A stretch of 64,000 bases of DNA, taken from contig NZ_JAPEOB010000003.1 of the NCBI RefSeq assembly GCF_026341775.1, positions 186,001 to 250,000 on the forward strand. Direction: 5' to 3'. Shown here piece after piece: positions 45,560-64,000 of the stretch. The first letter of the stretch is position 1, and every line of letters starts with the position of its first letter. Below the pieces are notes generated by a model that saw only the letters and a list, made by a program, of their open reading frames with translations, was not told the DNA's origin and searched no databases. The stretch comes from Streptomyces sp. NBC_00654 (GTDB lineage Bacteria; Actinomycetota; Actinomycetes; Streptomycetales; Streptomycetaceae). Made by a program: the position numbers and the translations under genes.

Positions 45560-46567
45560 ATGCGCCCCGACACGCCTGCCGACCACACCACCGAAGCCGA
45601 GCGCCTGCTGCGCACCGCGGCGCAGTACCCCGAGGACCGCGAGCCGCTGGTCCTCCAGGCCGCGGCCCATCTGGAACTCGCCGGTGACCGCGCCCGCGCC
45701 AGCACCCTCTACGACGAACTCCTCGCCGCCCCCGGCGCCACCGTCGACAACCCGCACCTGGTCAAGGCCCTCAAGGCGGCCAACCTCTGGGAGTACGGGC
45801 ACGAGGCCGAGGCCCGCGCGATCATCGACGGCATCCGCGCCGCGGGCCCGCTGGAGGCGGCCCCGTGGGACATCGCCGCCCAGACGCTGGAGGCCCATGA
45901 CGAGCTGGAGTCGGCCCATGACTTCTTCTCGACCGCGCTGACCCTGCTGCTGGCGCCGGGCGAGGAAGTCCCGTACGCCACCCAGGCCCTGCTGACCGGA
46001 CGCCATCGCGTACGCAGGCTGATGGGCGTCGGACACGACCCCTGGGACGAGCTGGCCGACGCCCTGCACACGGCCGCCGTCCCGCTCGACGAGCTGCACG
46101 ACCCGAAGCGGGTGTGGGCGCTCGGCTCCTCCGACCCCGGTGAGCTGAAGGCCGAGATCACCCGGCTCCGTGTGGAACTGGGCACCTACCGCACGGCGCT
46201 GTCCCGGCCGTTCCCGGTCGCCGTCCTGCACTGGACCGCCGAGGAGCTGGGCGAACTGCTCACCGCGTACCCGGGGTTGGCGACCGAGTACGTCACGCAC
46301 GAGACCCATCTGGACCGCCTGGAGGCCGCCCTGCGCGATCTGCACGCGGCGGGCACGCCGAATCTCGGCATCGTCACGGGCACGGTGCCCTCGTACGAGG
46401 CGTTCGCCGCGTCGGAGGCCGCGTCCCCGGCCGATCCGGATCTGCTCCCCCAGTACGCCACCACCCTCGCCGCCCGCGGCCGCGCCGTCCCCTGGCCGCC
46501 GGCCCGCAGCGCGGCGTGCTGGTGCGGCTCGGGGAACACGTACCGGGAGTGCCACGGGGCCGCGTGA
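45560..46567 (+). CDS. SEC-C zinc-motif protein with helical repeats
   Basis: 335 residues. The N-terminal two-thirds are TPR-like helical pairs (EAERLLRTAAQYPEDREPLV; AARTLYDELLAAPG-type repeats). The last 15 residues form a SEC-C motif (CWCGSGNTYRECHG), a zinc site also found on SecA and in many stand-alone proteins. No membrane segment. ATG 45560 gives the conserved start; the longer frame to 44798 lies over the sortase. Role unknown, possibly protein binding. Confidence 0.78.
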   Translation: MRPDTPADHTTEAERLLRTAAQYPEDREPLVLQAAAHLELAGDRARASTLYDELLAAPGATVDNPHLVKALKAANLWEYGHEAEARAIIDGIRAAGPLEAAPWDIAAQTLEAHDELESAHDFFSTALTLLLAPGEEVPYATQALLTGRHRVRRLMGVGHDPWDELADALHTAAVPLDELHDPKRVWALGSSDPGELKAEITRLRVELGTYRTALSRPFPVAVLHWTAEELGELLTAYPGLATEYVTHETHLDRLEAALRDLHAAGTPNLGIVTGTVPSYEAFAASEAASPADPDLLPQYATTLAARGRAVPWPPARSAACWCGSGNTYRECHGAA

Positions 46568-46667: not shown

Positions 46668-48131
46668 CTACCGGCCCTCGAAGGCGGCTTCGAGGGCCTT
46701 GTCGAGTTCCTCGGCCGCGTCGATGTCGGGGGAACCCTCGGTCAGCAGATCGTGCGCCTTCGACTGGAGCACCTGCGTGAACGCCCCGTAGTACGGGGTG
46801 CGTGGCCGCTGCACCGCGGTCTTCAGCGCCTCGCTCAGCGTGCGGGTGAAGGCGGCGCGGGCGGACTCCGTGGGAATCTGCGCGCTGCCCTCGCCCGTCA
46901 CGGGCGCGCCGGGGGCGCTGCCGGCCGGGCGCAGGGCCGCGGCGACCGCCGGCCAGCAGGGCCGGGACATCGCGGTGGGCTCGTAGGCCGAGGTGCGGGT
47001 GGCGGCGAACCCCGCGTCGAGCAGGCAGCGTTCGCTCTCCGGCGAGGTCAGGAACTTGGTCAGCCCGCGGGCGTTCTCCGCTCGCGGGGAGTCCGCGGTG
47101 ACGGCGAGGTTCTGGCCGCCGAGCACGGCGTGGCCGGGCAGGGCCGTGACCGCGTACTGCCCGGGTTTCAGCAGGCTCTGCAACGCCCCGTAGGCGTACG
47201 GCCAGTGGCGCAGGTACGCGACGCGTCCGGCGGCGAAGTCGGCCAGGGTGGCGTTCTCGTCCGAGGAGAGCGCGGCGGGCAGCAGCCGGTCGTTGTCGGC
47301 GTGCCGGAGCAGTTCGTTGAGGCCCTTCTTCAGCTCCGCCGGGTCGGACCGGTACGTGCCGTCGTCCCGCACGAGTTCCACGCCGACGGCGGCGAAGGCC
47401 TCGATGGTGTTGACGGTCAGCCCCTCGTACTGGCGGAGTTGGGTGGTCCAGCCCGCCTCGCCGCGCTCCCGGTCGAGAGTGCCGTTGTCGAGGGTGGTGA
47501 TGGAGGCGTAGAGGCTCTCCCAGGTCCAGCTGCTGTTGGGCATCCGGTCCTCGGTGATCCCGCCGTTCTGGAGCAGGTCGCGGCGGTAGTACAGCAGCCC
47601 GACATCGCTGTTGAAGGGCCTGGCGTAACTGCGGCCCTCCCAGAGCGTGGTGCTCTGCACCCGGGGGATGAAGTCCGGATCGTCCGCTTCGTCGGCGGGC
47701 AGTGCCTGGATGAGACCCGCCTCGGCGAACTCGGGTATCCAGGTGATGTCGAGGTTGACCACGTCGTACGCGGCGCTGCCCGACTGGAGTGCGCCGAGCA
47801 GCTGGCTGCGCTGCTGGTCGGCGCCGCCGGGGAGTTCGACGAGCTTGGCCCGGAGGGCGGGATCGTCCTGGTGCTGCCGGTTCCACTCCTCGATGAGCTG
47901 CTGCCGTACGCCGCCGGAGCCGGTCACATCGAGACCGCTGGCCACGACGATGGGCCCGGCGGCCGTCGTACCGGGACCCTTCCCGCTCGTGTCCGGGCCG
48001 GGCCCTTCACCGCCGGAGCCGCCGGAGCACGCCGGCGCGGCGAGGGCGAACAGCGCGCCGAGCGCGACGAGGCGCAGGCGACGCGTCCGGTGCCACCGGC
48101 TCCCTCGGATGTCTCTTCCCGTCGTACTCAT
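46668..48131 (-). CDS. Extracellular substrate-binding lipoprotein in the caspase operon
   Basis: 487 residues. A signal peptide (LRLVALGALFALAAPAC) with a possible lipobox at Cys35 precedes a type I/II carbohydrate-style binding fold of the ABC (MalE/UgpB) group (LDITWIPEFAEAGLIQALPA; GVELVRDDGTYRSDPAELKK; ADSPRAENARGLTKFLTSPE). No transporter permease or ATPase is nearby. Instead the ATG overlaps the stop of the caspase/vWA gene (ATGA), so it is made with it. It may be a sensor or ligand for the extracellular part of that protein rather than an uptake component. Confidence 0.78.
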   Translation of the reverse strand: MSTTGRDIRGSRWHRTRRLRLVALGALFALAAPACSGGSGGEGPGPDTSGKGPGTTAAGPIVVASGLDVTGSGGVRQQLIEEWNRQHQDDPALRAKLVELPGGADQQRSQLLGALQSGSAAYDVVNLDITWIPEFAEAGLIQALPADEADDPDFIPRVQSTTLWEGRSYARPFNSDVGLLYYRRDLLQNGGITEDRMPNSSWTWESLYASITTLDNGTLDRERGEAGWTTQLRQYEGLTVNTIEAFAAVGVELVRDDGTYRSDPAELKKGLNELLRHADNDRLLPAALSSDENATLADFAAGRVAYLRHWPYAYGALQSLLKPGQYAVTALPGHAVLGGQNLAVTADSPRAENARGLTKFLTSPESERCLLDAGFAATRTSAYEPTAMSRPCWPAVAAALRPAGSAPGAPVTGEGSAQIPTESARAAFTRTLSEALKTAVQRPRTPYYGAFTQVLQSKAHDLLTEGSPDIDAAEELDKALEAAFEGR

Positions 48132-51064
48132 TCCGCGTCCCCCGTACCGGTCTTCGCGACCTCGGCCGTCAGCTCCGTCGCGATGCTGTCCGACGGATCC
48201 AGGCAGCGCCCCCCAGTGACCTCGGCGAGCCGCTGGTTGAGCCGTCCCGGCGCACAGCCGTCGGGGCGCAGGGAGACCGCGACCACACGGACGCGCGCCC
48301 CCTGACCCGCTGCCTTCACCACCGCCTCGATGTCCTTCCGCTTCAGCTCCGAGGAGTCCTCGTCGTCGGTGATCAGAACGATCAGCCGGGGATCGGCGCC
48401 CGACGAGCCGCTCCGGAGCGTCCCCAGCGCGTCGGTCAGCCCGGTGACGATGTCCGCGTCGGCGTTCACCGCCTTCGCCTCCCCGACCGCTTTCTGCGCA
48501 CCGGTCAGCGGGTTCTTCCCGTACCGGACGACGTCCGGGTGATCCGTCTTCTTCTTCGCCTTCTTCTCGGGGGCCAGCGTCCACACCCCGTACTGGTCCG
48601 ACGTACCGAGCGAACGCAACGACCGGGTCACCAGCTCCTTGGCGCGGCCGGGCCCGGACCAGACCCGTTTGTCCTCCATGGACGTCGAGTTGTCGAGCAG
48701 ATAGAGGACCCGGCCGGGTCCGAGGGCCTTCCGGTAGTTGCTCAGCGCACCGGCGATCGAGGCCACCGACATGAGGGAGTCCGAATCCGGGATGTCGAGG
48801 CTCACCGCCCCGTCGTTGGCGGGAGCACGCAGCGGCGAGGTGGGTCCCGGTGGCGCCGGCTTGCCGTCCTCGACATCCCGGAACCCGTCCCGCACGAAGA
48901 GCGCCCGTGCGTCGGGGTCCCCCACCAGCCAGTCGTAGAAGTCCTTCACCGCCCGCTCGCGCGCCTTCGTGTCCCGGTCGGCGTCGGTCCAGGTGACCCG
49001 GACGAACGGCAGCTCCAGCACCGGTACGTCGGTGGGGTAGCGGGCCGTACGGTGCTGGAGGGTGTCGCTGGCGCAGGAGGGGCGGGTGCCCTGCACGGAG
49101 ACCTTGGACGGCAGGTTGAACAGCGCCATGGTCTGTTCGGGGACCAGCACGGCGGCCCGGTTCTCCAGGGTGTTGCGGGACCCGTCGGACAGCGCGCACA
49201 TCAGGTCGCGCGCCGTGCCGGGCATCGGCCGGAGCCGGTCGGCCATCCCAGCCTCGATGGCCGAAGGCTCCCCGGCGGAGGGCTCCCCGGCGGAGAACGA
49301 GTCGTACAGCGCGGCCGTGGACAGCAGCGCCCCGTCCGTGCCCTCGGGATCGGGCCGCAGCACCTCCAACGGCTCCTCACCGGCGGGCCGGCCGATCCTC
49401 AGCCCGGCGATGAGCGAGCCGAGCGGGGCACGGGTCCGCGCACCGGCCACCGAGGGCCCGAGGTCGGGAACGGCGAGCACCATCGGGGTGAAGGCCAGCG
49501 GCCCCAGCCCGGCGAGCCTCACCGTCTCCCGCGCGGACCCGCTCTGCCCTTCCCGCACCCGCGCGAGGGTGCTCCCGGCCGCCGGGATCCAGATGTCCGG
49601 CTGCGCGCCGAGGTCCCGCTGGGGCCGCAGGCAGTCCCCGGACACGGGGCACGTGGGGAGCGGCGACTGCCACAGGGCGGCGGACCGGAACGCGTCCACC
49701 GCGTCGGTGGACTTGCCGGCGTAGACACCGATTCCGACGGTGCGGCAGCCCTCCGCGTCCCTGTTCGTATAGGCGTCGGCGGCCTTCTGCACGGTGGGCA
49801 GGACATCGGGGTCGACGAGGACCCGCAGCTCCATGGGCGGGGTGCAGCCGCCGCGTCCGCCGCCCGGCGGCCAGTCCGGGGCCGCCCAGAGGACCGCTCC
49901 GGCACCGACCGCGAGGGCGAGGGTGAGCGCGATGGCCCGTTTCCGGCGGAGGGCCCGCAGACGCTGACGTACCCGATCGAGGGCACCGCCCTGCTCAGCG
50001 CGAACGGGCGCGGGCTCGGGCGCGTCCGGCTCGACGGGCGCGGGCTTGGGCTCACCCGACTCGGCGGGCGCGGGCTCGGGCGTGTCCGGCTCGACGGGGG
50101 CGGGTTTGGGCTCACCCGGCTCGATGGGCGCGGGCTTGGACGTGTCCGGCTCGACGGCCTCCGGTCCGGGCTCACCCGACTCGGCGGTCTCGTGCTTTGG
50201 CTCACCCGGACCGTCGGCCTCGGGCGGCACGGGCGGTGGTAGATGGGGCGGAGGCGGGAGGACGCAGTTCACCCGCCGGCTCGCCGGTGTCAGGGCGAGC
50301 AGGACGTCATCGCCGTGCCGCCGTTCCTCGGGAACCCACCGGTGACCGTCGACGGCTTTGAAGGGCGCCATCGCCTCCCGTATCTCGGGGACGATCCGGG
50401 TGAAGCTGACCGGTTCGTCGGCCGCGGTCCGCCCGGTCAGCAGCCCGTGAAGGGCGACGGTGAAATCGGTGCCGATGCCCTCGGCACCCGGCGGGATCTC
50501 CACGCCCGGCTCCGCCGCCATGAGCACGGCGAAGTTCTGCCGGACCTCCGGCGTGAACTCGTTCAGCGCGTTGCCCGCGAAGCAGCAGTCGAGGATGGCG
50601 ACGACCCAGTCGGCCTTCGCCTTCCGCAGCTCGGCCATCACGCCGTTCCGCCAGGACAGGGCGTCCACGAACGGGTGCAGCGGGTCCTGGGTGACGCGCG
50701 AGGAGGTGAACAGCAGATGCAGATCGCTGCCGTCGCTGCGGACGATGCCGTGCCCGGCGAAGTAGACGACGAGCAGCCCGTCCACCTCGTCACGGGCGGC
50801 CCGCAGCGCGGCGTGCGCCTGGAACGGATCCACCGGCCGCGCCGCCCCCGAACTCCCCTCCCTCTCGGCGGGGTCGGGGAGGATGACGAGATCCGACCCG
50901 TCGAGCACGCCGGATGTCGCGTGGGTGAGCGCCTCGGCCATGAGCCGGAGGCTCTGCGTCACCGCGGGCAGGTCGATCTCGTGGTCGTACGAGTCCACGC
51001 CGATGAGCACCGCGCGGTGCCGCTTGCCGCGGTTCCCCGCGCCGCGTGTGTTGTACGGCGACAC
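48128..51064 (-). CDS. Caspase-like domain / TM / substrate-binding / vWA fusion
   Basis: 978 residues in one frame. Residues 15-265: caspase-type (C14) peptidase with His105 (VYFAGHG) and Cys160/161 (AILDCCFAG). Residues 270-355: Pro-rich linker including three 20-residue repeats (GEPKPAPVEPD type). Residues 374-396: basic segment then one membrane helix (RAIALTLALAVGAGAVLWA). Residues about 410-700: extracellular binding-protein-like fold with six or more Cys. Residues about 770-970: vWA domain with the MIDAS motif DNSTS. The protease would be inside the cell and the sensor outside. Similar 'substrate-binding and vWA' proteins exist, but usually without the caspase. Overlap or near-overlap with both neighbours marks an operon. 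Confidence 0.82.
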   Translation of the reverse strand: MSPYNTRGAGNRGKRHRAVLIGVDSYDHEIDLPAVTQSLRLMAEALTHATSGVLDGSDLVILPDPAEREGSSGAARPVDPFQAHAALRAARDEVDGLLVVYFAGHGIVRSDGSDLHLLFTSSRVTQDPLHPFVDALSWRNGVMAELRKAKADWVVAILDCCFAGNALNEFTPEVRQNFAVLMAAEPGVEIPPGAEGIGTDFTVALHGLLTGRTAADEPVSFTRIVPEIREAMAPFKAVDGHRWVPEERRHGDDVLLALTPASRRVNCVLPPPPHLPPPVPPEADGPGEPKHETAESGEPGPEAVEPDTSKPAPIEPGEPKPAPVEPDTPEPAPAESGEPKPAPVEPDAPEPAPVRAEQGGALDRVRQRLRALRRKRAIALTLALAVGAGAVLWAAPDWPPGGGRGGCTPPMELRVLVDPDVLPTVQKAADAYTNRDAEGCRTVGIGVYAGKSTDAVDAFRSAALWQSPLPTCPVSGDCLRPQRDLGAQPDIWIPAAGSTLARVREGQSGSARETVRLAGLGPLAFTPMVLAVPDLGPSVAGARTRAPLGSLIAGLRIGRPAGEEPLEVLRPDPEGTDGALLSTAALYDSFSAGEPSAGEPSAIEAGMADRLRPMPGTARDLMCALSDGSRNTLENRAAVLVPEQTMALFNLPSKVSVQGTRPSCASDTLQHRTARYPTDVPVLELPFVRVTWTDADRDTKARERAVKDFYDWLVGDPDARALFVRDGFRDVEDGKPAPPGPTSPLRAPANDGAVSLDIPDSDSLMSVASIAGALSNYRKALGPGRVLYLLDNSTSMEDKRVWSGPGRAKELVTRSLRSLGTSDQYGVWTLAPEKKAKKKTDHPDVVRYGKNPLTGAQKAVGEAKAVNADADIVTGLTDALGTLRSGSSGADPRLIVLITDDEDSSELKRKDIEAVVKAAGQGARVRVVAVSLRPDGCAPGRLNQRLAEVTGGRCLDPSDSIATELTAEVAKTGTGDAE
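50000..50179 (-). repeat. Three 60-bp repeats in the caspase-protein linker
   Basis: Three consecutive 60-bp units encode 20-residue Glu-Pro repeats (residues 296-355) just before the membrane helix. Units differ at a few positions, so they are older than a fresh slippage event. Confidence 0.8.
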
Positions 51065-51069
51065 GACGC

Positions 51070-51576
51070 CTATACCCCCTCGGGCCGTTCACCGCCGTGC
51101 CCGTGCTCCCCCGCGCCGGGGTCCGGATCGTCGTCGGGCGCCGGTGGGTCGTCCGTGTCCCGGTTGAGCGCGGGGTCGTCCTCGAAGCCGTCCGCCGCGA
51201 GGCTGACGCGGGGATCCTCCTCGCTGTTGGCGAGCCGGCGCCGATTGCGGTGCCAGGTCGTCACCGAGTTCCACGCGATGTCGGCCAGCGGCCGGGCGGC
51301 CTCGGCGGCCACGATGAGCAGGATGTCCTGGACCAGTTCACCGCTCATGGACTCGCTCTGGGTGAGCGAGTCCCCCCGCTCCACCTCCAGCCCGGCCCAC
51401 CCTCGCGCCTCGGTCAGCGCGGGCGCGTTCTCCAGCCAGGCGCAGAGCGCCGCCAGATCCTCCCTGCGCCGGTGCGTACCGCTCACCGTGATCCGTAACG
51501 CGACGGTCCCGCCCCGCTCCCCACCCCCCGTGACCTGCCCGTCGCCCCGCCCACCGGCGTTCCCGCTGTCAGTCAT
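51070..51576 (-). CDS. EACC1-like effector-associated protein
   Basis: 168 residues. The core (residues about 25-115) reads VALRITVSGTHRRREDLAAL, then CAWLENAP, then a hydrophobic helix (VQDILLIVAAEAARPLADIA) and WHRNRRR, a layout I associate with EACC1, the small constant partner of caspase and trypsin effectors in actinobacterial conflict systems. The C-terminus is an acidic Asp/Pro tail. ATG 51576 lacks a strong ribosome site; ATG 51636 is in frame too. It ends 5 bp before the caspase gene, whose start it likely feeds. Confidence 0.6.
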   Translation of the reverse strand: MTDSGNAGGRGDGQVTGGGERGGTVALRITVSGTHRRREDLAALCAWLENAPALTEARGWAGLEVERGDSLTQSESMSGELVQDILLIVAAEAARPLADIAWNSVTTWHRNRRRLANSEEDPRVSLAADGFEDDPALNRDTDDPPAPDDDPDPGAGEHGHGGERPEGV

Positions 51577-51859
51577 CCGCCCGCCCCCATCGGCACCGTC
51601 GCCGCCCGCCCTGCCGGACTCCACCGAACAAGCCATTATTTCACGGGAGTTGACACAAGGCACTGCTTTGTTCCGCACAATGGCGAGGGAGCCGCACCGA
51701 CACCCCCTCTCACTCAAGGTTCACTTCCGGCCACGCGTTGTGGAACGAGTGGTGAGGATTCACGGATGTCCGACCTTTGCCATACGATCACAATTCAACA
51801 ATCGTCTTGGGGCCGCGCCTCCCCGTCAGGCCCCGTTCCGTGTGCGCGAGGAAGTCTTC
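51577..51859. promoter_or_regulatory. Divergent control region of the two conflict operons
   Basis: 283 bp between EACC1-like and MORC-like genes, less G+C-rich than the flanks. A consensus TTGACA (51650-51655) on the plus strand has no good -10 at 17 nt; CACAAT at 51676 is 20 nt away. No palindrome was found that would explain joint control. Confidence 0.4.
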
Positions 51860-53389
51860 ATGCCGCCCTACCAGCCGTCCGCGGACTGGCAGTACGAGAT
51901 CCCGACGACCGGCAGCAAGCGGCTCCCGCCCGCCGCCCGTTACGTCGAGTCGCTGACCCACCAGGGATACGGCTTCGAGGCGGCCATCGCCGACCTGGTC
52001 GACAACTCCATAGACGCGGGCGCCCGCAGTGTCGTGATCAGCTTCCTCCGCGACGAGGACCGGCTCGTCAGCCTGCTCGTGGTGGACGACGGCACCGGCA
52101 TGAACGACGAGGCGCTCGACACCGCGATGACGGTCGGCGGCCGGCAGGAGTACGGGAAGAGCGCGCTCGGCCACTTCGGCGCCGGTCTCAAGGCCGCGTC
52201 CCTCTCGCACGCCGACTCGCTCACCGTGATCAGCCGTACCAAGCGCAGCCCGTCGGCCGGACGCCGCTGGCTGACCGCCCGCGCCCAGGCCGACTTCACG
52301 TGCGACATCGTCGACCCCGGCTACTGCCAGGACCTCGTCGACCGGTACGACGGCCTGATCGAGTGGCACGGCACGATCGTCCGCTGGGACCGGGTCCGCG
52401 CGTTCGAGACCGTCACGGCGGGCCAGGCCGACCGCTTCCTCAACGACGCGATCGAGAAGCTGGAGACCCACCTCGGGCTCTATCTCCACCGCTTCCTCGC
52501 CCGCGAGGACTTCAACGTCGACATCGTCGTCGAGGACGTGACGACGAAGGAGGAGCTGGACCACCGAGGGGTCGAGCCGATCGACCCGTTCGGCTACCGC
52601 CTCCCCGGCCGGCCCGGCTACCCGCGTACGTACACCGCACCGGTCGAGGGCGTCGGCGACGTGGAGCTGGCCGCCCACATCTGGCCGCCGAAGTCCCCGC
52701 TGGTCAGCTACCGGGGCATCGGCCCGCTCGCCGAACGCCAGGGTTTCTACATCTACCGCAACGACCGGCTCGTCCAGGCGGGCGGCTGGAACAGCACCCG
52801 CAGTGCCGAGGGACACCTCGCCCTGGCCCGTATCGCCGTCGACCTGCCGTCCGGGCCGAACGACGTCTTCAGCCTCACCGTCAAGAAGGACGGGGTGACG
52901 GTCACTCCCGCCTTCGCCCGCGGTCTCGAAAAGGCCGTGGACGGCACGGGGCACAGCTTCGCCACGTATCTCCAGGAGGCGGAGGCGACATACCGGGAAG
53001 CGGCCCGGCGGGCCACGGAGCCGCAGCGCAAGGCGGTCATCCCGCCCGGCAAGGGCCTGGACCCGCGGCTGAAGCGCACCCTGCGCGACGAGCTGCCCGA
53101 GCTGGAGGGCGAGGACCCGATCACCTTCCGCTGGGACGCGCTGCCCTCGGACGTGTTCTTCGAACTCGACCGCGAGGAACGGGAGATCAGGCTCAACAAG
53201 GAGTACCGGCAGGTCTTCAACGGCGGGCGGCGCGGCGGCCTGAACGACGCCCCGGTGGTGAAGAGCATGCTCTACCTGATGGTCAACGAGATCTTCCAGA
53301 AGGAACGCGTCCGGGCCGTCCACACCGACAACGTCGCCCTGTGGAACAGCGTCCTGGTGACGGCCGCGCGCTGCGAACTCGCGCGCTGA
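51860..53389 (+). CDS. MORC/MutL-like GHKL ATPase
   Basis: 509 residues. GHKL ATP-binding motifs: N-box ADLVDNSIDAGA (Asn49), G1 VVDDGTGMND (Asp76-77), G2 GHFGAGLKAASLS (104-116). A transducer-like second domain continues to about 330 with a basic helix-rich C-terminus. This matches the prokaryotic MORC-type ATPases found with Z1 ATPases and Vsr/DNA methyltransferases. GAGGAAG precedes ATG 51860; the longer frame back to 50243 overlaps the caspase gene and is rejected. Likely an ATP-driven DNA clamp or loader for the nuclease. Confidence 0.85.
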   Translation: MPPYQPSADWQYEIPTTGSKRLPPAARYVESLTHQGYGFEAAIADLVDNSIDAGARSVVISFLRDEDRLVSLLVVDDGTGMNDEALDTAMTVGGRQEYGKSALGHFGAGLKAASLSHADSLTVISRTKRSPSAGRRWLTARAQADFTCDIVDPGYCQDLVDRYDGLIEWHGTIVRWDRVRAFETVTAGQADRFLNDAIEKLETHLGLYLHRFLAREDFNVDIVVEDVTTKEELDHRGVEPIDPFGYRLPGRPGYPRTYTAPVEGVGDVELAAHIWPPKSPLVSYRGIGPLAERQGFYIYRNDRLVQAGGWNSTRSAEGHLALARIAVDLPSGPNDVFSLTVKKDGVTVTPAFARGLEKAVDGTGHSFATYLQEAEATYREAARRATEPQRKAVIPPGKGLDPRLKRTLRDELPELEGEDPITFRWDALPSDVFFELDREEREIRLNKEYRQVFNGGRRGGLNDAPVVKSMLYLMVNEIFQKERVRAVHTDNVALWNSVLVTAARCELAR

Positions 53390-53431
53390 CCCGCGTCCGG
53401 ACGTACCCACCCGAGGAAGCGTGAGCACACC

Positions 53432-56374
53432 ATGACCGACCACCTGTTCAACCTCCACGGCGATGTCCTGGGCGCGATGCGCCGGGGCCCCAAGCACTTC
53501 GCCAAACTGGCGTTCGCCCTCGCGGAGGCCGACGAACCCGCCGACACCGGACTGAGCCACTTCGCGGACCGCGTCATCGGCGCGGGCCCCGGCGACGAAC
53601 TCACCGCTCTGTGGCACCGCACCCTGACCGGCTGGGACCTGGCGGAGCGGGCCGAGTGGTCGTCCGCCCCGCCCCGTACCGACGAGCGCCGCGCCGACAC
53701 GTACACCCGCCTGGGCTTCGGCGCCGACCTGCGCAAGGCGCTCGACGGGGCGGTCCCGGTCTTCAAGGAGCCCGGCCCGACCGTCATCAGCACGACGCCG
53801 ACCGCCTGGTACTCCCGTGACACCGCTGCCGCCCGCTCCTTCTACTGGGACGCGTACGAGCGGCTGCTGCGCGGCAAGGGCTGGTCGGACGCGGCGGTCT
53901 CCAGTCTGGACGAGGCGAGCCACGCCGTGGTCGAGCGCCTCGCCGACCCCACGCGCACCGAGGCGTACGGGGCCCGCGGCCTGGTCGTCGGCTACGTCCA
54001 GTCGGGCAAGACCGCCAACTTCACCGGCGTCACGGCGAAGGCCATCGACGCGGGCTACCGCCTGGTCATCGTCCTCGGCGGCACGCTGAACCTCCTCCGC
54101 GGCCAGACCCAGCGCCGGCTCGACATGGAGCTGATCGGCCAGGAGAACATCCTGCGCGGCGCCGACCCCACGGACCTGGACGCGCTGATCGGCGTCGACT
54201 ACCAGGACGACGAGGACTGGCCGGCGAAGTTCGTCAGCCACGGCGGACGCCCGTCCACGCAGGGCGCGTTCGACATCGAACGCCTCACCACGCGCGACGA
54301 CGACTACCAGAGTCTGGCCACCGGCATCCGGGCCCTGGAGATCGACAAGCAGGACCGCACACAGCCGCTGTACGCGCCGGACAACCTGCACCGGGCGGCC
54401 GCCCGCGTGATGGTCGTCAAGAAGAACAAGTCCGTACTGGGCAAGCTCATCACGGACCTGAAGAAGATCGGCCCGATGATCCTCTCCGAGATCCCGGCGC
54501 TGATCATCGACGACGAGTCCGACCAGGCCTCGGTGAACACGACGGACCCGAAGAAGTGGGAGGAGGGCAAGGTCGCCCGTACGGCCATCAACAGCCAGAT
54601 CTCCCAGCTGCTCGGCCTCCTGCCCCGGGCCCAGTACGTCGGTTACACGGCCACCCCGTTCGCCAACGTCTTCGTCGACCCCGGCGACGGCGAGGACATC
54701 TTCCCGCGCGACTTCCTGATCTCGCTGCCGCGCCCGACCGGCTACATGGGCGTGCAGGACTTCCACGACCTGGACCGGACCGACGAGTCCGCCACCGGAG
54801 GCGCCGAGAAGTCCCACATCCGGGGCATCCACGACGACGCCCGGGGCGACCGCCTCCAGGAGGCCCTGGACGCCTTCCTCCTCACCGGGGCCCTGAAGCT
54901 GTACCGCGCGGCCCGGGGAGTCCCGGACGGCCCGTTCCGCCACCACACGATGCTGGTCCACGAGTCCGTCCGCATGGCCGAGCACAAGATCCTCGCCGAT
55001 CGCATCAGGACCCTGTGGGAGAAGGCGTCCTACACCGGCCAGGAGGGCCACGACCGCCTCGCCGCCCTCCTCCTCTCCGACTTCCGGCGCTTCGCCGACG
55101 AGGGACTGCCCACGCCCACGTCGTACGAGGACCTGAAGCCGCACGTCTTCCGCGCCCGCCAGCTGATCAACTCCGGCGGCACCCCGGTGCTCGTCGTCAA
55201 CGGCGACTCCGAACGCGACTACGCCCAGCCGGACCTGGACTTCGACCGCACCCCGAACGTCTGGAAGATCCTGGTCGGCGGCACGAAGCTCTCCCGGGGC
55301 TTCACGGTCGAGGGCCTGACGGTGACGTACTACCGCCGCAAGACCCAGCAGGCCGACACTCTGATGCAGATGGGCCGCTGGTTCGGCTTCCGCCCCGGCT
55401 ACCGCGACCTGGTCCGCCTCTACATCGGCCGCGAGGAGCCGATGGGCAGAACGAAGACGGTCGACCTGTACGAGGCGTTCGAGGCGATCTGCCGCGACGA
55501 GGAGACGTTCCGCGCCCAGCTCACCCGCTACGCCACCCTGATCGACGGCAAACCCCAGGTCACCCCGGCCCAGATCCCGCCCCTGGTCTCCCAGCACCTC
55601 TCCTGGATCAAGCCGTCCGCCCGCAACAAGATGTTCAACGCGGAGCTGGTGGAGATCCGCTCCCCCGGCGAGTGGGTCGAGCCGACCGCCTACCCGACGG
55701 CCACCGCCGACCTGCGGCACAACGCGGAGGTGTGGCGACCGGTCCTGGACACGCTCGACCCCACCCCTGTCACCATGACCCACGGCGGCCGTGACAGCTA
55801 CGAGGCGCTGCTCGGCACGCTCGACCACGAGTCCCTGATCAGGGTCCTGTGCGATCTGCGGTGGTCCGCCCCCGCACAGTTCTCGCCGCACCTGGAATCC
55901 CTGCTCACCGCGGGCGAGCACGGCCCGGGGATCGACGACTGGCTGGTGATCGCTCCGCAGCAGATGTCCGCCCGCCGCGTCGCCGCCACGGTCCTCGGCT
56001 CCCGCCCGCTCTCCCTCGCCCACCGCAGGAGGCGCCGGGGCGACCTCTTCGGCGCCATCAGTGAACCGAAGCACCGCGGGGCCGCGCTGCGGATCGCCCG
56101 CGCGAGGGACACCGAGAAGGGGACGGGGAACGAGATCGTGGAATCGCTCGTACGCGAGCGACGCGGCGTACTCGTCCTGTATCCCGTGGTGGAGGACAGG
56201 GCACCCCGCATCTCCGCCGCCGGAGCGATCGACCCCGAGCACCTCGTCATGGCCTTCTCCCTGGTTCCGCCGAGGTCGTCGACCGGCCCGCAGCGGAGCC
56301 TGGTGCGCTTCCGGACCATCGACTCCACCAGGAGAGATTCGGCGATCATCGAACGCGGGACGGACGGAACGTAG
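53432..56374 (+). CDS. Z1-domain ATPase (helicase-like)
   Basis: 980 residues. A P-loop GYVQSGKTAN (Lys193), a DExx-like box LIIDDESDQAS (360-366) and VGGTKLSRGFTVEGLTVTYY followed by QADTLMQMGRWFGFR form an SF2-like ATPase core that embeds the Z1 domain. The C-terminal 250 residues are unique. It starts 43 bp after the MORC-like gene, as in known MORC-Z1 restriction-like operons and the reported MZA defence system. Probably translocates DNA for the module. Confidence 0.9.
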   Translation: MTDHLFNLHGDVLGAMRRGPKHFAKLAFALAEADEPADTGLSHFADRVIGAGPGDELTALWHRTLTGWDLAERAEWSSAPPRTDERRADTYTRLGFGADLRKALDGAVPVFKEPGPTVISTTPTAWYSRDTAAARSFYWDAYERLLRGKGWSDAAVSSLDEASHAVVERLADPTRTEAYGARGLVVGYVQSGKTANFTGVTAKAIDAGYRLVIVLGGTLNLLRGQTQRRLDMELIGQENILRGADPTDLDALIGVDYQDDEDWPAKFVSHGGRPSTQGAFDIERLTTRDDDYQSLATGIRALEIDKQDRTQPLYAPDNLHRAAARVMVVKKNKSVLGKLITDLKKIGPMILSEIPALIIDDESDQASVNTTDPKKWEEGKVARTAINSQISQLLGLLPRAQYVGYTATPFANVFVDPGDGEDIFPRDFLISLPRPTGYMGVQDFHDLDRTDESATGGAEKSHIRGIHDDARGDRLQEALDAFLLTGALKLYRAARGVPDGPFRHHTMLVHESVRMAEHKILADRIRTLWEKASYTGQEGHDRLAALLLSDFRRFADEGLPTPTSYEDLKPHVFRARQLINSGGTPVLVVNGDSERDYAQPDLDFDRTPNVWKILVGGTKLSRGFTVEGLTVTYYRRKTQQADTLMQMGRWFGFRPGYRDLVRLYIGREEPMGRTKTVDLYEAFEAICRDEETFRAQLTRYATLIDGKPQVTPAQIPPLVSQHLSWIKPSARNKMFNAELVEIRSPGEWVEPTAYPTATADLRHNAEVWRPVLDTLDPTPVTMTHGGRDSYEALLGTLDHESLIRVLCDLRWSAPAQFSPHLESLLTAGEHGPGIDDWLVIAPQQMSARRVAATVLGSRPLSLAHRRRRRGDLFGAISEPKHRGAALRIARARDTEKGTGNEIVESLVRERRGVLVLYPVVEDRAPRISAAGAIDPEHLVMAFSLVPPRSSTGPQRSLVRFRTIDSTRRDSAIIERGTDGT

Positions 56375-56387
56375 GAGACTGGTGGTG

Positions 56388-56840
56388 ATGAGCACGGCGA
56401 AACCTTCGTCCCCCGGCGTCTCCGCCCGGATGAGCCGCCAGGCGAGCCGCGACACCGCGCCCGAGGTGGCGGTGCGCAAGCTGCTGCACGCGGAGGGGTA
56501 CCGCTTCCGGGTCAACGTGCGCGTGCCGGACATGCCCCGGCGGACCATCGACATCGCGTTCACCCGGGCCAAGGTGGCCGTGATGATCGACGGTTGCTTC
56601 TGGCACGGCTGCCCCGTGCACGCGACGCAACCGAAGTCGAACGCCCAGTGGTGGCGGGACAAGCTCGACCGGAACATGGCGCGGGACCTGGAGACGACCG
56701 AGCACCTGGCTTCGGCGGGCTGGACCGTACTGCGGTTCTGGGAGCACGAACCTCCGGCCGGTGCCGCCGAGAAGGTGGCGGCGGCAGTCGAGCGGGAGCG
56801 ACAGGCACGGCCGAAACGACACAAGGGTGGGGACCTATGA
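56388..56840 (+). CDS. Vsr-like DNA mismatch endonuclease
   Basis: 150 residues of the very-short-patch-repair fold. VSARMSRQASRDTAPEVAVR matches the Vsr N-terminus; the metal Asp is in RRTIDIAF; FWHGCPVHAT and NAQWWRDKLDRNMARD are further signatures. Free-standing Vsr nicks T:G mismatches from deaminated 5-methylcytosine; in MORC-Z1 operons it is thought to be the nuclease arm. AGGAG at 56374 allows GTG 56382, GTG 56385 or ATG 56388. Overlaps the next gene by ATGA. Confidence 0.87.
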   Translation: MSTAKPSSPGVSARMSRQASRDTAPEVAVRKLLHAEGYRFRVNVRVPDMPRRTIDIAFTRAKVAVMIDGCFWHGCPVHATQPKSNAQWWRDKLDRNMARDLETTEHLASAGWTVLRFWEHEPPAGAAEKVAAAVERERQARPKRHKGGDL

Positions 56841-57790
56841 GCAAACTGCGGTTCGTCGATGTGTGCGCGGGCGCGGGCGGATTGGCTCTGGGGCTGGAGG
56901 GGGCGGGTTTCGACCCCGTCCTGCTTCTGGACCGGAAGCCGGTGGCCTGCGAGACGCTTCGCCGGAACCGGCCCGCGTGGAACGTCCTGGAGATGGATCT
57001 GCTGGACTTCGTTCCGGACGAGCATCCGCGGACCTACGACGTCGACCTGTTGTCGGCCGGGCTGCCGCGCGTGAAGTCCAGCGCGACCGCGGCGAGGACG
57101 GAGACGGAGGAGGAGCTGCGCCTGCTGGAGGCGGCGGTGCTGCTCGCACACTCCGTCCAACCGCGGGCGCTGCTCATCGAGAACGTGCCCGGCCTGGTCG
57201 ACTCCCCGTCCTTCGAGGCCGTCCGGGAATTCATCCGCAAGGAGCTGGAACACCTCGGGTACCGGTTCCGCTGGTTCGTCCTGAACGCGGCCGACTTCGG
57301 CGTGCCGCAGGACCGCAAACAGGGCGTGCTCGTCGCGCTGAAGGAGCGGTACTTCGACGCGTTCCGCCCGCCGGCGCCCACGGTCGACAGTCATGTCCCG
57401 GTCGGCAGCGCGCTGCGCCGCTCCATGGCCGCTCGTGGTTGGCCCGGTGCGGACGCGTGGGCGGCACAGGCGCTGAGTGTCGCCCCCACCCTGGTGGGTG
57501 GCTCGGACAAGCGAGGAGGCGCGGACCTGGGGCTCACGGGGACCAAGAAGGCCTGGGAACGCATGGGGGTCAACGGTGGGGCGCTGGCCGACGAGGTTCC
57601 CGGACCGGACGACTCCCCCTCAGGGTTGATCAAACTCACGGTCGAGCAGGCCGCGCTTCTCCAGTCGTTCCCCCGGGAATGGTCGTTCGCCGGGAAGAAG
57701 ACCGCGCGCTACCGCCAGATCGGCCACGCCTCACCCCCGCCCGTCGGAACGGCACTCGGCCGGGCCGTCGCGGCGGCCCTGGACGCATGA
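56837..57790 (+). CDS. C5-cytosine methyltransferase homologue lacking the catalytic Cys
   Basis: 317 residues with the C5-methyltransferase layout: motif I FVDVCAGAGGLALGLEGAGF, motif VI LLIENVPGL, motif VIII-like DFGVPQDRKQGVLVAL, motif IX/X LLQSFPREWSF and GHASPPPVGTALGRA. Motif IV, normally GGPPCQ, reads AGLPRVKSS (residues 74-82): the nucleophile Cys is Arg78 and the Gln is Val79. It cannot act by the normal mechanism. It overlaps vsr by 4 bp and is followed, after 70 bp, by an intact enzyme. A recognition or regulatory partner role is inferred. Confidence 0.82.
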   Translation: MSKLRFVDVCAGAGGLALGLEGAGFDPVLLLDRKPVACETLRRNRPAWNVLEMDLLDFVPDEHPRTYDVDLLSAGLPRVKSSATAARTETEEELRLLEAAVLLAHSVQPRALLIENVPGLVDSPSFEAVREFIRKELEHLGYRFRWFVLNAADFGVPQDRKQGVLVALKERYFDAFRPPAPTVDSHVPVGSALRRSMAARGWPGADAWAAQALSVAPTLVGGSDKRGGADLGLTGTKKAWERMGVNGGALADEVPGPDDSPSGLIKLTVEQAALLQSFPREWSFAGKKTARYRQIGHASPPPVGTALGRAVAAALDA

Positions 57791-57846
57791 TCCCGAGCGG
57801 GTCGACCGACCCCGAAGTGCTGGACGGAGAGAGGTTGAACGCCGGC

Positions 57847-57860
57847 TACACTTTCACACC
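57847..57860 (+). promoter_or_regulatory. Possible leaderless promoter for the second methyltransferase
   Basis: TACACT (57847-57852) ends 8 nt before the ATG at 57861, and no ribosome site is present, the usual shape of a leaderless actinobacterial start. No convincing -35 is seen. Confidence 0.4.
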
Positions 57861-59096
57861 ATGACCCGCCCAGCACACCCCTCACTTCCGCCTGCGAAAT
57901 TCGGGATCGTCGATCTCTTCGCCGGGCCCGGCGGTCTCGACATCGCCGCCACGATCATGGCGGGCGAGGGTGTGGCGAGCATCGGCGTCGAGTGGGACGA
58001 CGCCACGCGCCGGACACGTGACGCGGCCGGTCTGCTGACCACCGAGGTCAAGGACGTCGCCGCGCTGGGCCCGTGCGACCCGTCGGTCGTCGAGGCGACG
58101 GTGCTCACCGGCGGGCCGCCCTGCCAGTCCTTCTCCGTCGCGGGCAACCGGAAGGGTCACGAGGCGCTGGACGACGTGGAGCGTCTGGCCACGCGGTTGG
58201 CCGACCACGAGGACATCGATTCGTTCGACAAGGCGTGGGAAGAGGTCAAGGCCGAGACCGACCTCATGTCGGACGAGCGCACCGGATTCGTGCTCCAGCC
58301 CCTGCGCTGGATCATGGAGGCCAAGCTCAGGCGCGGTCGACCGTACGACGTGGTCGTCCTGGAGCAGGTACCCACCGTTCTGCCGGTGTGGAAGCACTAC
58401 GTCAAGATCCTCAAGCGGACCGGATACGCGGCCGACGCCCACGTCCTGCACTCCGAGGACTTCGGTGTCCCGCAGGCCCGTCGACGGGCCGTGCTGATCG
58501 CGCAGTACGACCCCGGGAACGAGCGTCGTGAGGTGCGCTTCCCGAAAGCGACGCATCAGAGGTACGTGAAGGGCGCCGAAAGGCTGACGACGACGGGCGG
58601 CCAGGAGGACGATTCCCTTTTCTCGACCCTGCCCGACGGCGAGGAGGACGAGCCCATCAAGCCCTGGGTGTCCATGGGAGACGCGCTCGAAGCGACCCGT
58701 CCCGACGACTTCGTCATGGTCTCCAACTACGGCTCCGGCGGCGACCCCAAGAACCGAGGACGCCGCACCTCCGACGAGCCCGCGCCGACGATCACCGGCA
58801 AGGTACGACGCAACCGGCTCTACCTGCTCAAGGGCGAGGCGGGCGCGAAGGAGGTCGGTGAGGAACTGGAACGGCTGTCGTTCGAAGAGGCCGGGCTCCT
58901 CCAGTCCTTCCCCGCCGCGTACCCCTGGCGGTCCACCGATGTGGCCCAGCAGATCGGCAACGCCATCCCGCCCCGTCTCTCCCTCCACATCCTGAGCATG
59001 GCTCTCCTGCGCGAGAAGCCGAGGAAGGAGTGGTACGGCGAGCTCAAGGGCTGGAAGCCGCAGACCCCGTCCCCGGTCGAGGACGAGGACGCCTGA
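57861..59096 (+). CDS. DNA (cytosine-5) methyltransferase
   Basis: 411 residues, all main motifs: motif I GIVDLFAGPGGLDIAATIM, motif IV LTGGPPCQSFSVAGN (nucleophile Cys88), motif VI VVLEQVPTVLP (Gln instead of the usual Asn), motif VIII DFGVPQARRRAVLIA, and motifs IX-X around LLQSFPAAYPW and QQIGNAIPPRLS. The target-recognition stretch lies at about 225-330. It should make 5-methylcytosine at an unknown site and protect host DNA. It may start leaderless. It faces the DUF6339-like gene with only 15 bp between stops. Confidence 0.92.
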   Translation: MTRPAHPSLPPAKFGIVDLFAGPGGLDIAATIMAGEGVASIGVEWDDATRRTRDAAGLLTTEVKDVAALGPCDPSVVEATVLTGGPPCQSFSVAGNRKGHEALDDVERLATRLADHEDIDSFDKAWEEVKAETDLMSDERTGFVLQPLRWIMEAKLRRGRPYDVVVLEQVPTVLPVWKHYVKILKRTGYAADAHVLHSEDFGVPQARRRAVLIAQYDPGNERREVRFPKATHQRYVKGAERLTTTGGQEDDSLFSTLPDGEEDEPIKPWVSMGDALEATRPDDFVMVSNYGSGGDPKNRGRRTSDEPAPTITGKVRRNRLYLLKGEAGAKEVGEELERLSFEEAGLLQSFPAAYPWRSTDVAQQIGNAIPPRLSLHILSMALLREKPRKEWYGELKGWKPQTPSPVEDEDA

Positions 59097-59111
59097 GGCC
59101 CCGGCCCGCCC

Positions 59112-59999
59112 TCACGCCGCGTCGACGGTGGCCTTTCCGCGTACGGGGGCCTCGGCGAAGAGGCTCGCGAACAGGTCGGCCAGTGCGACCACGGACGCCT
59201 CGGGTGCCTTCTCCTCGGGGGGGCCTTCCGGAAGCGTCCGGCGCGGCACGGCGGCCGCCCACTCCGCCGCCTCGATCCAGCCCCGCAGAGGCCGGCCGTC
59301 CCGCTCGATGTCCGGAGCGATGACGTCGTACATGAGCGTGGCCGCCGAAGCGTTGATCACCGCCGCCAACGCGTTGATCTCCCGGCCGGTCCTCACCGTG
59401 CCGCGCTCGATCAGGCGCGCCATCGCCTGCGCCGTGGGTCGGTGGTCGATCACGTCGAGCCTCAGGGCGCTGTTGAGCATGTCCTGGTGCGCGCACACGG
59501 TCTCGACCGGTGCGTAGTCGGGACCGTCGCGGAACAGTTCGGCCGCCCACCACAGCCGGGCGAACGCCTGTGTGTACGCCGGTCCGCTGAACCGTGCGGC
59601 GGTGGCCCTCGGCAGCTCGTCCTTCTTCGGCTCGGAAGTGTGACGCCAGACGACGTAGTCGGGGGCCACACCCAGCGCCAGGTAGTTCCAGAACCGTCGG
59701 TCGGCGGCCTCGCGTCGGCTGAGTCTCAGCGTCGCGTGCAGCCGAGGGGCCAGCCAGGCGTCGGCCGCCGTCGGCTTCCCGTCACCGAAGACATGCATGG
59801 CGTCGTCGACCAGACCACGGACCGGCCCCAGCTCGGCACGGCTCGCCTCCGCGTACGGCAGAGGTTCGGTGACCTTGTTGAGCCCGATGGCGGGGACGTC
59901 CTCCTTGCCGGTGAGCAGTCCTTCACCGATGTACTGCGCGGCGTTGAGGTCCGCGAGCAGGGCCAGACGTTCGGGCAGGTGGTTCGGCTTCTCGGTCAT
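59112..59999 (-). CDS. DUF6339-like protein of the conflict island
   Basis: 295 residues, cytoplasmic, mostly helical, no membrane segment. The N-terminus (LPERLALLADLNAAQYIGEG) and centre (RRFWNYLALGVAPDYVVWRH) match what I recall as DUF6339, a family seen with DNA methyltransferase and GHKL genes. No catalytic motif stands out. Its ATG overlaps the stop of the unknown 330-residue gene (ATGA); last gene of that operon, converging on the methyltransferase. Confidence 0.72.
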   Translation of the reverse strand: MTEKPNHLPERLALLADLNAAQYIGEGLLTGKEDVPAIGLNKVTEPLPYAEASRAELGPVRGLVDDAMHVFGDGKPTAADAWLAPRLHATLRLSRREAADRRFWNYLALGVAPDYVVWRHTSEPKKDELPRATAARFSGPAYTQAFARLWWAAELFRDGPDYAPVETVCAHQDMLNSALRLDVIDHRPTAQAMARLIERGTVRTGREINALAAVINASAATLMYDVIAPDIERDGRPLRGWIEAAEWAAAVPRRTLPEGPPEEKAPEASVVALADLFASLFAEAPVRGKATVDAA

Positions 60000-60988
60000 G
60001 CGTCGGTCCCCCGGTGGATGCTTTCGAGGCCACGGATGGTGGCGGTCAGGGCCTTGGGCACTTCCGCCCTGCGCGTCGCCGCGTAGTGGATGCGGGGTTG
60101 GAGGTCGGTCCAGCCGGCCGTTCCGGTGCGTCGCCGGTGGACCTCCCGCAGGGATTCCTCCAGGGAGCGGTCGGGCACGACGTCGGGCAGCATCTCGCGG
60201 AGCACCTCACCGCGCCAGTCGCGCGGGAAGAGCGGCGTTCCGTCCTCCTCGATCTCCAGGTCGCCGATGGCGGTGTGGAAGACGGCTGTCCACACATCCG
60301 TGCACATCTGGGCGATCAGAAGATCACGGACAAGGTTGTCGACCGATGTGCCGTTGCCATCGACAAGTTCGGTGATGCCTTCGAAATCGGTGTTCACGTG
60401 TACGGCCGGGAGGTCGCCGGACGTGTCGACGATCCACGGCACCTCACGGAAGCGTCGCAGCCATTCCGGCCCTTCGCGGAATCCGACCTCATGGACTTCG
60501 AGTTCCCGCTCGCGAAGGGGCGCATCGGCTTTCAGGTCGACGATCCAGTCCTTGTCCGAGGTCGCGATCTCCCGTCCCGGCACGCCGTCGACAGTGGCGA
60601 CCACATGGAGAGACATCGTGGCCCGGTCCAGATGGTCCTCACGCCACAGATCCAGATGGCCCGTCCATTGGCGGCCCCCATCGGCCCCGGGCCTCAGGGA
60701 CGCCGTGTTCCTCGTGTTGGTCGCGCCCTCACTCAGCACGACGACGACCGCCACGTCCGACCAGGGGCCGTCGGGCTCGGTCGCCCTGCCGGGCACGGTG
60801 GCGGAGAGCTTCAGCCGGGCGCTCTCCCAGTCGTCCCGCCCGGCCACTCCCGGCGCGACCACCTGGTCGACGGTCGAGAACGCGTTGGTGTCCAGCGGTT
60901 CCCGGATCTCGCCCGGCCCCCGCAGTTCGACGGCCTCGACCCGGAGCGACACGACACCGGGAAGTCGCTTGTACGGATAGACCTTCAT
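59996..60988 (-). CDS. Unknown protein between XRE-GHKL and DUF6339 genes
   Basis: 330 residues, not recognised. The N-terminal 170 residues look beta-rich (VVSLRVEAVELRGPGEIR; ATMSLHVVATVDGVPG) and the C-terminal half helical (VDNLVRDLLIAQMCTDVWTA; LEESLREVHRR). No signal peptide, membrane segment or nuclease motif is visible. ATG 60988 overlaps the stop of the XRE-GHKL gene and its own stop overlaps the next start, so all three are made in step. Confidence 0.75.
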   Translation of the reverse strand: MKVYPYKRLPGVVSLRVEAVELRGPGEIREPLDTNAFSTVDQVVAPGVAGRDDWESARLKLSATVPGRATEPDGPWSDVAVVVVLSEGATNTRNTASLRPGADGGRQWTGHLDLWREDHLDRATMSLHVVATVDGVPGREIATSDKDWIVDLKADAPLRERELEVHEVGFREGPEWLRRFREVPWIVDTSGDLPAVHVNTDFEGITELVDGNGTSVDNLVRDLLIAQMCTDVWTAVFHTAIGDLEIEEDGTPLFPRDWRGEVLREMLPDVVPDRSLEESLREVHRRRTGTAGWTDLQPRIHYAATRRAEVPKALTATIRGLESIHRGTDA

Positions 60989-63096
60989 GCCTGGACCCCC
61001 TTGTCGGTGCGCAGCTCCACGACGAGTCCGCTGAACACGGCCCGTACCGGATGGGTGGATACGTCGGTGGTTCCCCGGAAGGTCGCACCGCGCGCGCCGG
61101 GCGCGATGTGGATCGCCCCGTCCACCACCTCGCAGTTGTGCACGGCGACGAGTTCGGACCAGCCCAGAACCGGTCGCGGCCCGGAGCGCACTTCCAGCTT
61201 CGCGACCGGGACGGGGCGCCAGGAGTCTCCTCCGAGAGGAACCTTGATCTCCCCCGTGACGCACCACGCGCCGTCGTCGTCGATCCGGGCATCGAGCTCC
61301 TCCAGGGTCGGCGGACCGGCCGCCGACACGGGCCGGGCGACCTTACGGCCTCCCACGGCGAGCCGTTTGCGCAGCCGCTCCGAGCCGCCCTTGCGCTTCT
61401 TGGCGGGAAGCGCGACCAGATCGCGCACCGCTCTGTTCGTCTCGGTGGTGAGCGTGGCGATGCGCCGGTACGCGGACGGCGAGTAGAGCATCCGCAGCTC
61501 TTCCGTCTGTCCCCACTTGTCGTGCTCGGGCGGTTCCGCGGCTCGGAGGAACGCCTCCGCCTCGTCCGCGAAGGGCGCGTCGTCACCCGCCGCCCTGCCC
61601 GCGAGCAGCACGGCCTGGAAGGGATTCGTCCCTACCGGCAGGTTGGGCACCCACCCGCTCCTGACCGTCATACGGTTGCCCCGCATGGTCGTCACCCGGT
61701 TCGACTTCCCGTCGTCGCCGTCCTCGGCCGCGGTCACCAGGACGACGGCCCGGTGCTCCCCGTCGCTTCGTCCCGCGCGCCCCGGCACCACCAGGGGCAC
61801 GGTGGTCATGGCCACCTGTCCGGACTCCGTCAACCGCTCCACGGTCGTGCCGTCCAGGAACGCCTGCAGTGCGCGGGTGCGGGAAGGTTGGGTGCCCCGG
61901 GGATCGACCCGCGTCTCCGCGATGATCTCCTCGCCGTTGCGGAGCGTCCGGACGGAGGCCTCCAGCAACGGTCGCCCGGTCGCTCCACCGGTCATGGCCG
62001 CCCAGAAGTTCCGGCCGAGTGCCTCCCGCAGACGGTGGTGCATCCGATGCACGCTGTCGCTGTCCTCGACATCGCCGCTCTCCGTCTCCTCGGCGAGGCT
62101 CGCCACGTCGTGGGCCCCGACGATCAGGAACGACGTGCCGGGCTCGGAGCTCTCCCTGGAGAGATGGAGCCGCTCGGCTCCGCCCTCGTCGGCCCACCAC
62201 GAGCGGGCGACGTTCACATCGTCGGCGTCGGGATCCGGCCGGCCGAACCAGGCCGGACCTGCCCAGGGTGTTCCGCCCACCTCGCGCCAGGGCAGATCGA
62301 GTCGGCCGATGAGCCGCCGTTCGGTCCGTCCCTCGTGCGGTTCCGACAGCGTGGAGTTCATGAGCACCAGGCCGAGTCGGCTCGTCGCCCAGAGCGTCGC
62401 CTTGCCGAGACCGTACGAGCCACCGGCGGCGCTCATGGACTTGTGGCTGTCGAGCTGACGACGGACGACCGCGGCGAAGCGGCCGGTCTCGTAGTCGTCG
62501 CCGGTCAGACCGGAGGCGTTGTAGTCGTCGATGCGCAGGAGGACCAGCCGGTCGCGCTCGTACATGTCGCGCAGCCCGGCGGCGATCGTCCGGCCGACCT
62601 TCTGGTCCTGCGCGGAAGCCGCCTCGTAGTGCGGAAGGAGGTCGTCCCAGCGAATCTCCTCCTTGAACCGGGCCAAGGACTCTCCGGTCAGTTCGTGCAG
62701 CGTGTAGCGCACCCGGACGGGCTGGGCTGGGTCCAGGCGTTCGTCCAGACTGTTCTGGGTGGCCTCGCGGGCCAGCACTCCGACATCGGCCCGGAACGCG
62801 AAGGCCGCCGCGTTGCCGAACTCGCGTCCCCCGTCCGCGTATCCGGGGCGGTGGTACCAGGAGACCGGCAGGCCGGCCAGGGTGTCGGTGGTCCGGGTGT
62901 GGATGGTCCCCAGATCCGTCCCCAGCGCCTCGGCGATCTTGGCGATCGTCTCCTCGCGGGGAGTCGCCCGCCCGGTGATCCAGGCCGAGACGGCCGCCCG
63001 GGTCAGGCCGATCTCCTGAGCGAGATCGGCCTGGCTCATCTTCGACTGCTTCAGCTGTCGTGCGAGCCAGGGACCGAAGTCCATGCCGGTGTCCAT
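60985..63096 (-). CDS. XRE-type HTH fused to a GHKL ATPase
   Basis: 703 residues. Residues 8-65 are a lambda-repressor-like HTH (LKQSKMSQADLAQEIGLTRA, then VSAWITGRATP). After a linker, GHKL motifs follow: N-box AREATQNSLDER (Glu111, Asn115), G1 RIDDYNASGLTG (Asp190-191) and G2 GGSYGLGKATLWATS (225-239). The remaining 460 residues are unassigned, with a beta-rich end. ATG 63096 follows GAGGAG; GTG 63105 and 63102 are alternatives. It could couple DNA binding to an Hsp90/MORC-type ATP clamp, or autoregulate the operon. Its upstream region has repeated TTGACA and GCGACA elements. Confidence 0.78.
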   Translation of the reverse strand: MDTGMDFGPWLARQLKQSKMSQADLAQEIGLTRAAVSAWITGRATPREETIAKIAEALGTDLGTIHTRTTDTLAGLPVSWYHRPGYADGGREFGNAAAFAFRADVGVLAREATQNSLDERLDPAQPVRVRYTLHELTGESLARFKEEIRWDDLLPHYEAASAQDQKVGRTIAAGLRDMYERDRLVLLRIDDYNASGLTGDDYETGRFAAVVRRQLDSHKSMSAAGGSYGLGKATLWATSRLGLVLMNSTLSEPHEGRTERRLIGRLDLPWREVGGTPWAGPAWFGRPDPDADDVNVARSWWADEGGAERLHLSRESSEPGTSFLIVGAHDVASLAEETESGDVEDSDSVHRMHHRLREALGRNFWAAMTGGATGRPLLEASVRTLRNGEEIIAETRVDPRGTQPSRTRALQAFLDGTTVERLTESGQVAMTTVPLVVPGRAGRSDGEHRAVVLVTAAEDGDDGKSNRVTTMRGNRMTVRSGWVPNLPVGTNPFQAVLLAGRAAGDDAPFADEAEAFLRAAEPPEHDKWGQTEELRMLYSPSAYRRIATLTTETNRAVRDLVALPAKKRKGGSERLRKRLAVGGRKVARPVSAAGPPTLEELDARIDDDGAWCVTGEIKVPLGGDSWRPVPVAKLEVRSGPRPVLGWSELVAVHNCEVVDGAIHIAPGARGATFRGTTDVSTHPVRAVFSGLVVELRTDKGVQA

Positions 63097-63105: not shown

Positions 63106-63717
63106 TCCTCAGCTCCTGCACTGCCCATGGAGTCCACCGTACACGCAGATTTGACAGCGACACGCGGGCGACAATCCTGATTGACATCCCCCGTGGGTCC
63201 GAGGAAGGTTCTCACCGTCACATCGTTCAAATGCCCCAATGTGTCACGGGATCGAATAATGCGAGGAATGCCCTCGCATGCCGTTTTGCAACTATTGCCC
63301 GAAATGCACCGAACCCGGCCTGCGACAAACATGCGACGAACACCCTTGCGGAGTGCGGGAATAGCCCTGTACGGTCGAAGTGGGCGAGGCCTTTTCGGCC
63401 CCGATCGGCACCCGAATTCGGGAGCCCTCCTTTGCGTACCCGGACACCAAAATCATGCCCGATACGCAATTTCGGCCGAATCTTCAAAAACCCTTGCTCG
63501 ATTCGGTGGAACGGAGTTTGATTCACGCACCGGTCGCCATGACGGCGGCAACACCACTCAACCGTCCGGCAGTTCCATAACCCCGATTCCATCGTTCCGC
63601 GCGGAATTCACGCCTCTCTCCTCTCGTGTGTATTCAGCCTCTCTGCATGTGCGCCATCTTTCGATACCGCCCGATTCGATCACGTACACAGAACACGAGA
63701 GCAGAGGTACATCAGTC
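63106..63717. promoter_or_regulatory. AT-richer intergenic region with palindromes
   Basis: 612 bp without a credible gene, visibly lower in G+C than the rest of the window. Near the XRE-GHKL gene are direct repeats TTGACA (63151 and 63181) and GCGACA (63157 and 63168). At 63259-63279 an 8-bp perfect stem (ATGCGAGG/CCTCGCAT, loop 5) and at 63411-63422 the perfect palindrome CCCGAATTCGGG are visible. A weak plus-strand promoter TTGCGG...TACGGT (18 nt) lies at about 63350-63379. Confidence 0.4.
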
Positions 63718-64000
63718 ATGCCCAACGAATTCGACATCGTCGACCAGTACGACTCCTTCGAGGACCCGCAGCTCAAGTCCGATTTCCTCGACGCCATCGG
63801 CACGACGCGTGCCCGTATCGAGTATCTTCGGCACCGCCGCGACGCCCAGGCCGCCCGCAACGCGGCGAAGGCCACCGAGGAGTCGGAGTCGAACGAGTCT
63901 TCGGCGTACGAGCGTCGGCGGGAGCCCCGTCGCCGCTGTCGCCACGCGCCCCGCCGCTCCCGGGTGACCGTCAACCACCCGCCGAACCGGGGCGGCACCC
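63718..64000 (+). CDS. Unidentified protein, N-terminal part (partial)
   Basis: An open frame from ATG 63718 to the window edge, 94 codons so far. It begins MPNEFDIVDQYDSFEDPQLK, acidic and hydrophilic, then a helix (FLDAIGTTRARIEYLRHRRD) and an Arg-rich stretch. AGAGG at 63703 is a possible ribosome site at 10 nt. No family recognised. It may belong to the neighbouring island or be the start of a new unit. Confidence 0.55.
   Translation, partial: MPNEFDIVDQYDSFEDPQLKSDFLDAIGTTRARIEYLRHRRDAQAARNAAKATEESESNESSAYERRREPRRRCRHAPRRSRVTVNHPPNRGGT

Follow-up and report, generated by a model that had tools for sequence, protein, structure and literature searches.

The locus described here lies at the right-hand end of a 64,000-nucleotide stretch of Streptomyces sp. 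NBC_00654 (contig NZ_JAPEOB010000003.1, positions 186,001 to 250,000; the window). A minus-strand trio of genes, encoding a helix-turn-helix GHKL ATPase (HTHG), a 330-residue protein (MID) and a DUF6339 protein, faces plus-strand genes that include a MORC-type ATPase, a Vsr-type endonuclease and two C5-methyltransferase homologues, MT1 and MT2 (Table 1). In the window's own genome the locus continues past the window edge, with a divergent operon beyond HTHG that encodes helicases and the DISARM proteins DrmA and DrmB. The trio forms the constant core of a large, predicted anti-virus gene cluster in which the DNA-attacking parts are exchanged between strains. At none of 115 trio loci did the trio occur alone; methyltransferase, Vsr (104 of the 115) or effector genes adjoined every one.

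HTHG passed the GHKL ATPase check, possessing a GHKL+S5 fold and the N, G1, G2 and G3 boxes, and matched the PADLOC model PDC-M33A (74 bits, E = 2.4e-21), while the DUF6339 protein matched PDC-M33C (29.6 bits). Both the A (GHKL) and C (DUF6339-like) parts of PDC-M33, a PADLOC phage defence candidate, have counterparts in the trio. MID had no match in Pfam, NCBIfam or PADLOC (even at E 10) and no credible match among PDB sequences, with 22 columns of its alignment invariant, and no PDC-M33B model appeared in the output. Because MID matches no PADLOC model, the trio was not filed as a member of PDC-M33, from which it also differs in that its GHKL protein carries a fused XRE or sigma domain. Neither PDC-M33 nor DUF6339 was found in the literature searched. 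An earlier note on this DNA had described the trio as a helix-turn-helix-GHKL fusion, an unknown and a DUF6339-like protein, and its observation is confirmed. Its interpretation, which took the 59.1–63.1 kb half for an added module that it could not match to a described type, is partly supported; the trio is the constant core, and MORC belongs to an optional module.

The core of DISARM consists of DrmA and DrmB, with DrmC non-essential and outside the core complex, according to the available passages of PMC9142583. The island shares with DISARM, as described there, DrmA and DrmB as separate adjoining genes and a C5-methyltransferase in the locus. The DrmC PLD nuclease was not found in the two genes after DrmB, where the scan stopped. 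Across 345 genomes, with DrmA scored against that of the window, 37 DrmA loci reached at least 1200 bits, and MID occurred on the same contig within ~15 kb in 36 of them. MID was present at seven of seven class C DrmA loci. The sole MID-less locus among the 37 (L202) retained degenerate remnants similar to the ends of two trio proteins, DUF6339 (E = 5e-8) and HTHG (E = 0.0045), in one stretch. The trio marks particular DISARM lineages.

The DNA-binding head of HTHG varied with the effector operon. The MID tree indicates that two loci (L128 and L152) gained the class C operon independently of the main clade of that class. Their GHKL domains share 89% and 92% identity with those of class A relatives, while their XRE domains reach at most 38% and 42% with class A proteins and 45% and 42% with class C proteins, respectively. 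L053, which belongs to class A but lies next to the class C clade, had 84% GHKL and 33% XRE identity to that clade, with an XRE 63% identical to other class A proteins. Within class C, XRE conservation fell to 42%, compared to 86% for GHKL, and XRE was almost lost in two of 21 proteins. In 20 of the 21 class C loci a sigma-70-like part, XRE and the GHKL ATPase are joined in one open reading frame (e.g., L055:6298-9912), with a possible internal GTG start ahead of the XRE part. These sequence patterns fit a head matched to the effector operon, in which the sigma part would replace XRE.

The methyltransferase pair, noted earlier as a cysteine-less and an intact gene, proved to be just that. MT1 has arginine in place of the catalytic cysteine (GLPR) and retains ENV, with the Pro-Arg motif in 97 of the 103 MT1-type places read. 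MT2 has an intact PPCQ and EQV in place of ENV (EQV in 93 of the 95 places read, with 11 further places uncovered). In PADLOC, MT1 scored 306 bits to DruM2 compared to 90 bits to DrmMII, and MT2 scored 62 bits to DrmMII, far below its MTase_II score.

Tentatively, we read the trio as a new ATP-driven controller of modification-guarded immunity, whose exchangeable XRE or sigma-70 head suits the neighbouring effector operon and whose self-mark comes from an obligatory pair of dead and active C5-methyltransferases. If so, one conserved core would serve any effector operon that comes to lie next to it. The exchange of parts around a constant trio offers a concrete handle for testing how defence clusters are controlled. 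The likeness of HTHG to restriction-modification controller proteins such as C.BclI appears to be one of fold; HTHG differs in its length (~700 residues), its GHKL ATPase and its two partner proteins, and its control role is putative. Other DrmA loci weigh against the trio as a marker of DISARM lineages. No MID lay near two DrmA loci of 1110–1160 bits, one of which (L203) had all four class A effectors at 42–53% identity and no trio genes found. Of 39 further full-length DrmA loci (530–575 bits), 21 were examined (L206 and L227–L246) and none had trio genes; among the last 20, MT1/MT2-like matches occurred in two and Vsr in two. Recombination alone would keep neighbouring parts together, a caution for the matched heads. 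The sigma part may itself be a DISARM component, since a separate sigma-70-like gene adjoins DrmA in 16 of these 20 trio-less loci, as well as in L206. One such gene was tested and resembles the end of MzaA as modelled in PADLOC; the literature passages available do not list a sigma-70-like gene as part of DISARM. Either way, these genes beside trio-less DrmA mean that the class C sigma-HTHG fusion ties the trio to DISARM.

The same sigma-like genes favour a second explanation, itself rather doubtful, that the trio belongs to the DNA-attack machinery itself, where it would act as a MutL/Hsp90-like, ATP-driven clamp loading DrmAB or helicases on DNA, with the XRE or sigma domain docking on DNA and not regulating a promoter. 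The GHKL+S5 fold of HTHG, resembling MORC4 and MutL, and the near loss of XRE in two of the 21 class C proteins agree with such a clamp. An independent embedded anti-phage system resembling PDC-M33, with its own effector activity and merely housed in restriction-modification and DISARM loci, is improbable: PADLOC carries PDC-M33 models, PDC systems derive from an embedding approach (PMC12988326, as far as available) and MID and DUF6339 could conceal an effector, but the trio stands alone at none of the 115 loci and a distant relative elsewhere in the phylum again adjoins a C5-methyltransferase and Vsr. In a sampling that reached beyond the family, MID occurred in two of 296 phylum genomes, the window's own and one of the same genus, and PDC-M33A in three of 198, both MID-bearing ones and a third outside the window's class. 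In that third genome, a GHKL gene that fits the HTHG profile at E = 5.7e-16 stands in a row with two small genes, a C5-methyltransferase gene with its cysteine, and Vsr; of the small genes, the first lacks profile similarity to MID and the second is weakly PDC-M33C-like.

Table 1. Features of the island and its flanks (window positions unless marked as contig positions)
Feature	Position	Strand	Remarks
SEC-C-related left-flank open reading frame	44798..46567	+	68% identity at 45560-46561
Caspase/solute-binding/VWA protein and small EACC1-like protein	48128..51717	-	between flank gene and MORC
MORC-type GHKL ATPase	51860..53389	+	optional module, part 1; HATPase_c_3 E=2.2e-21
Gene between MORC and Vsr	53432..56374	+	by order, the Z1 ATPase gene of the earlier note
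Vsr-type mismatch endonuclease	56388..56840	+	TIGR00632 118 bits, above cut-off 97.85
MT1, C5-methyltransferase homologue	56837..57790	+	Pfam DNA_methylase E=1.8e-40
MT2, C5-methyltransferase	57861..59096	+	PADLOC PDLC03374 (MTase_II) 737 bits
DUF6339 protein, trio gene 3, PDC-M33C-like	59112..59999	-	PF19866 E=2.6e-12; PDC-M33C E=1.1e-7
MID, trio gene 2, 330 aa	59996..60988	-	35-row alignment
HTHG, trio gene 1, PDC-M33A-like	60985..63096	-	XRE helix-turn-helix, GHKL+S5 ATPase, beta-rich C-terminus
Intergenic region, HTHG to divergent side	63106..63717	.	two candidate TTGACA-containing boxes, ~63150-63156 and ~63180-63186
Small open reading frame, 5' part	63718..63999	+	114 aa in L051
GHKL-SF2 helicase, 1589 aa	contig 250185-254954 (G000:C3)		Tiamat-like GHKL N-terminus, SF2 helicase C-terminus
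UvrD/GajB-like helicase	contig 254939-256864 (G000:C3)
DrmA helicase	contig 256861-260085 (G000:C3) = L104:2861-6085		PADLOC DrmA 829 bits
DrmB (DUF1998/MZB)	contig 260166-261926 (G000:C3) = L104:6166-7926		PADLOC 224 bits, Pfam MZB E=2.4e-7

The MORC-type ATPase and Vsr-like nuclease genes named earlier were both upheld, the former by its HATPase_c_3 match and by the S5 motif that defines the MORC family (Iyer 2008), GhXhhpXXRhl, which reads GFYIYRNDRLV at residue 295 and occurs in 14 of 14 aligned homologues, and the latter by its TIGR00632 score. HTHG was without this motif (0 of 18 sequences examined). The motif DTLMQMGRWFG was read at 642 in one family-membership check. Membership in MZA (MzaA-E) was rejected, with MzaB at 129.3 bits (cut-off 850) and MzaC at 252.8 (cut-off 1500).

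TmtA models score up to 152 bits on the N-terminal part of the 1589-residue protein, TmtA being Tiamat, presumably a single-gene system; the island's protein differs in its C-terminal SF2 helicase and multi-gene locus. The main text of a YprA-family survey, in its available part, lacks the words GHKL, MutL and Streptomyces (PMC12458937). A terminator-like inverted repeat, perfect over 15 bp around a loop of 9 bases (L051:12100-12138, in the stretch covering the window's own locus), ~100 bp past the window end, separates this gene from the 114-residue open reading frame and is partly kept in 12 close relatives, against which the intergenic region with its candidate boxes was also aligned.

On the left flank, a SEC-C-motif gene adjoins 58 of the 115 trio loci. 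The caspase/EACC1 pair is probably separate cargo; the caspase-type protein scored 96 bits to NF047832 (caspase_w_EACC1), under the cut-off of 140, and such genes lie near two of the 115 loci (L062 and L094), with L051 beginning right of its own pair. Elsewhere in the window, three plus-strand tRNA-Lys(CTT) genes (8563-8637, 20029-20103 and 25774-25848) are spread over 17 kb, are identical at 75 of 75 bases and are possibly repeated attachment sites of integrated elements.
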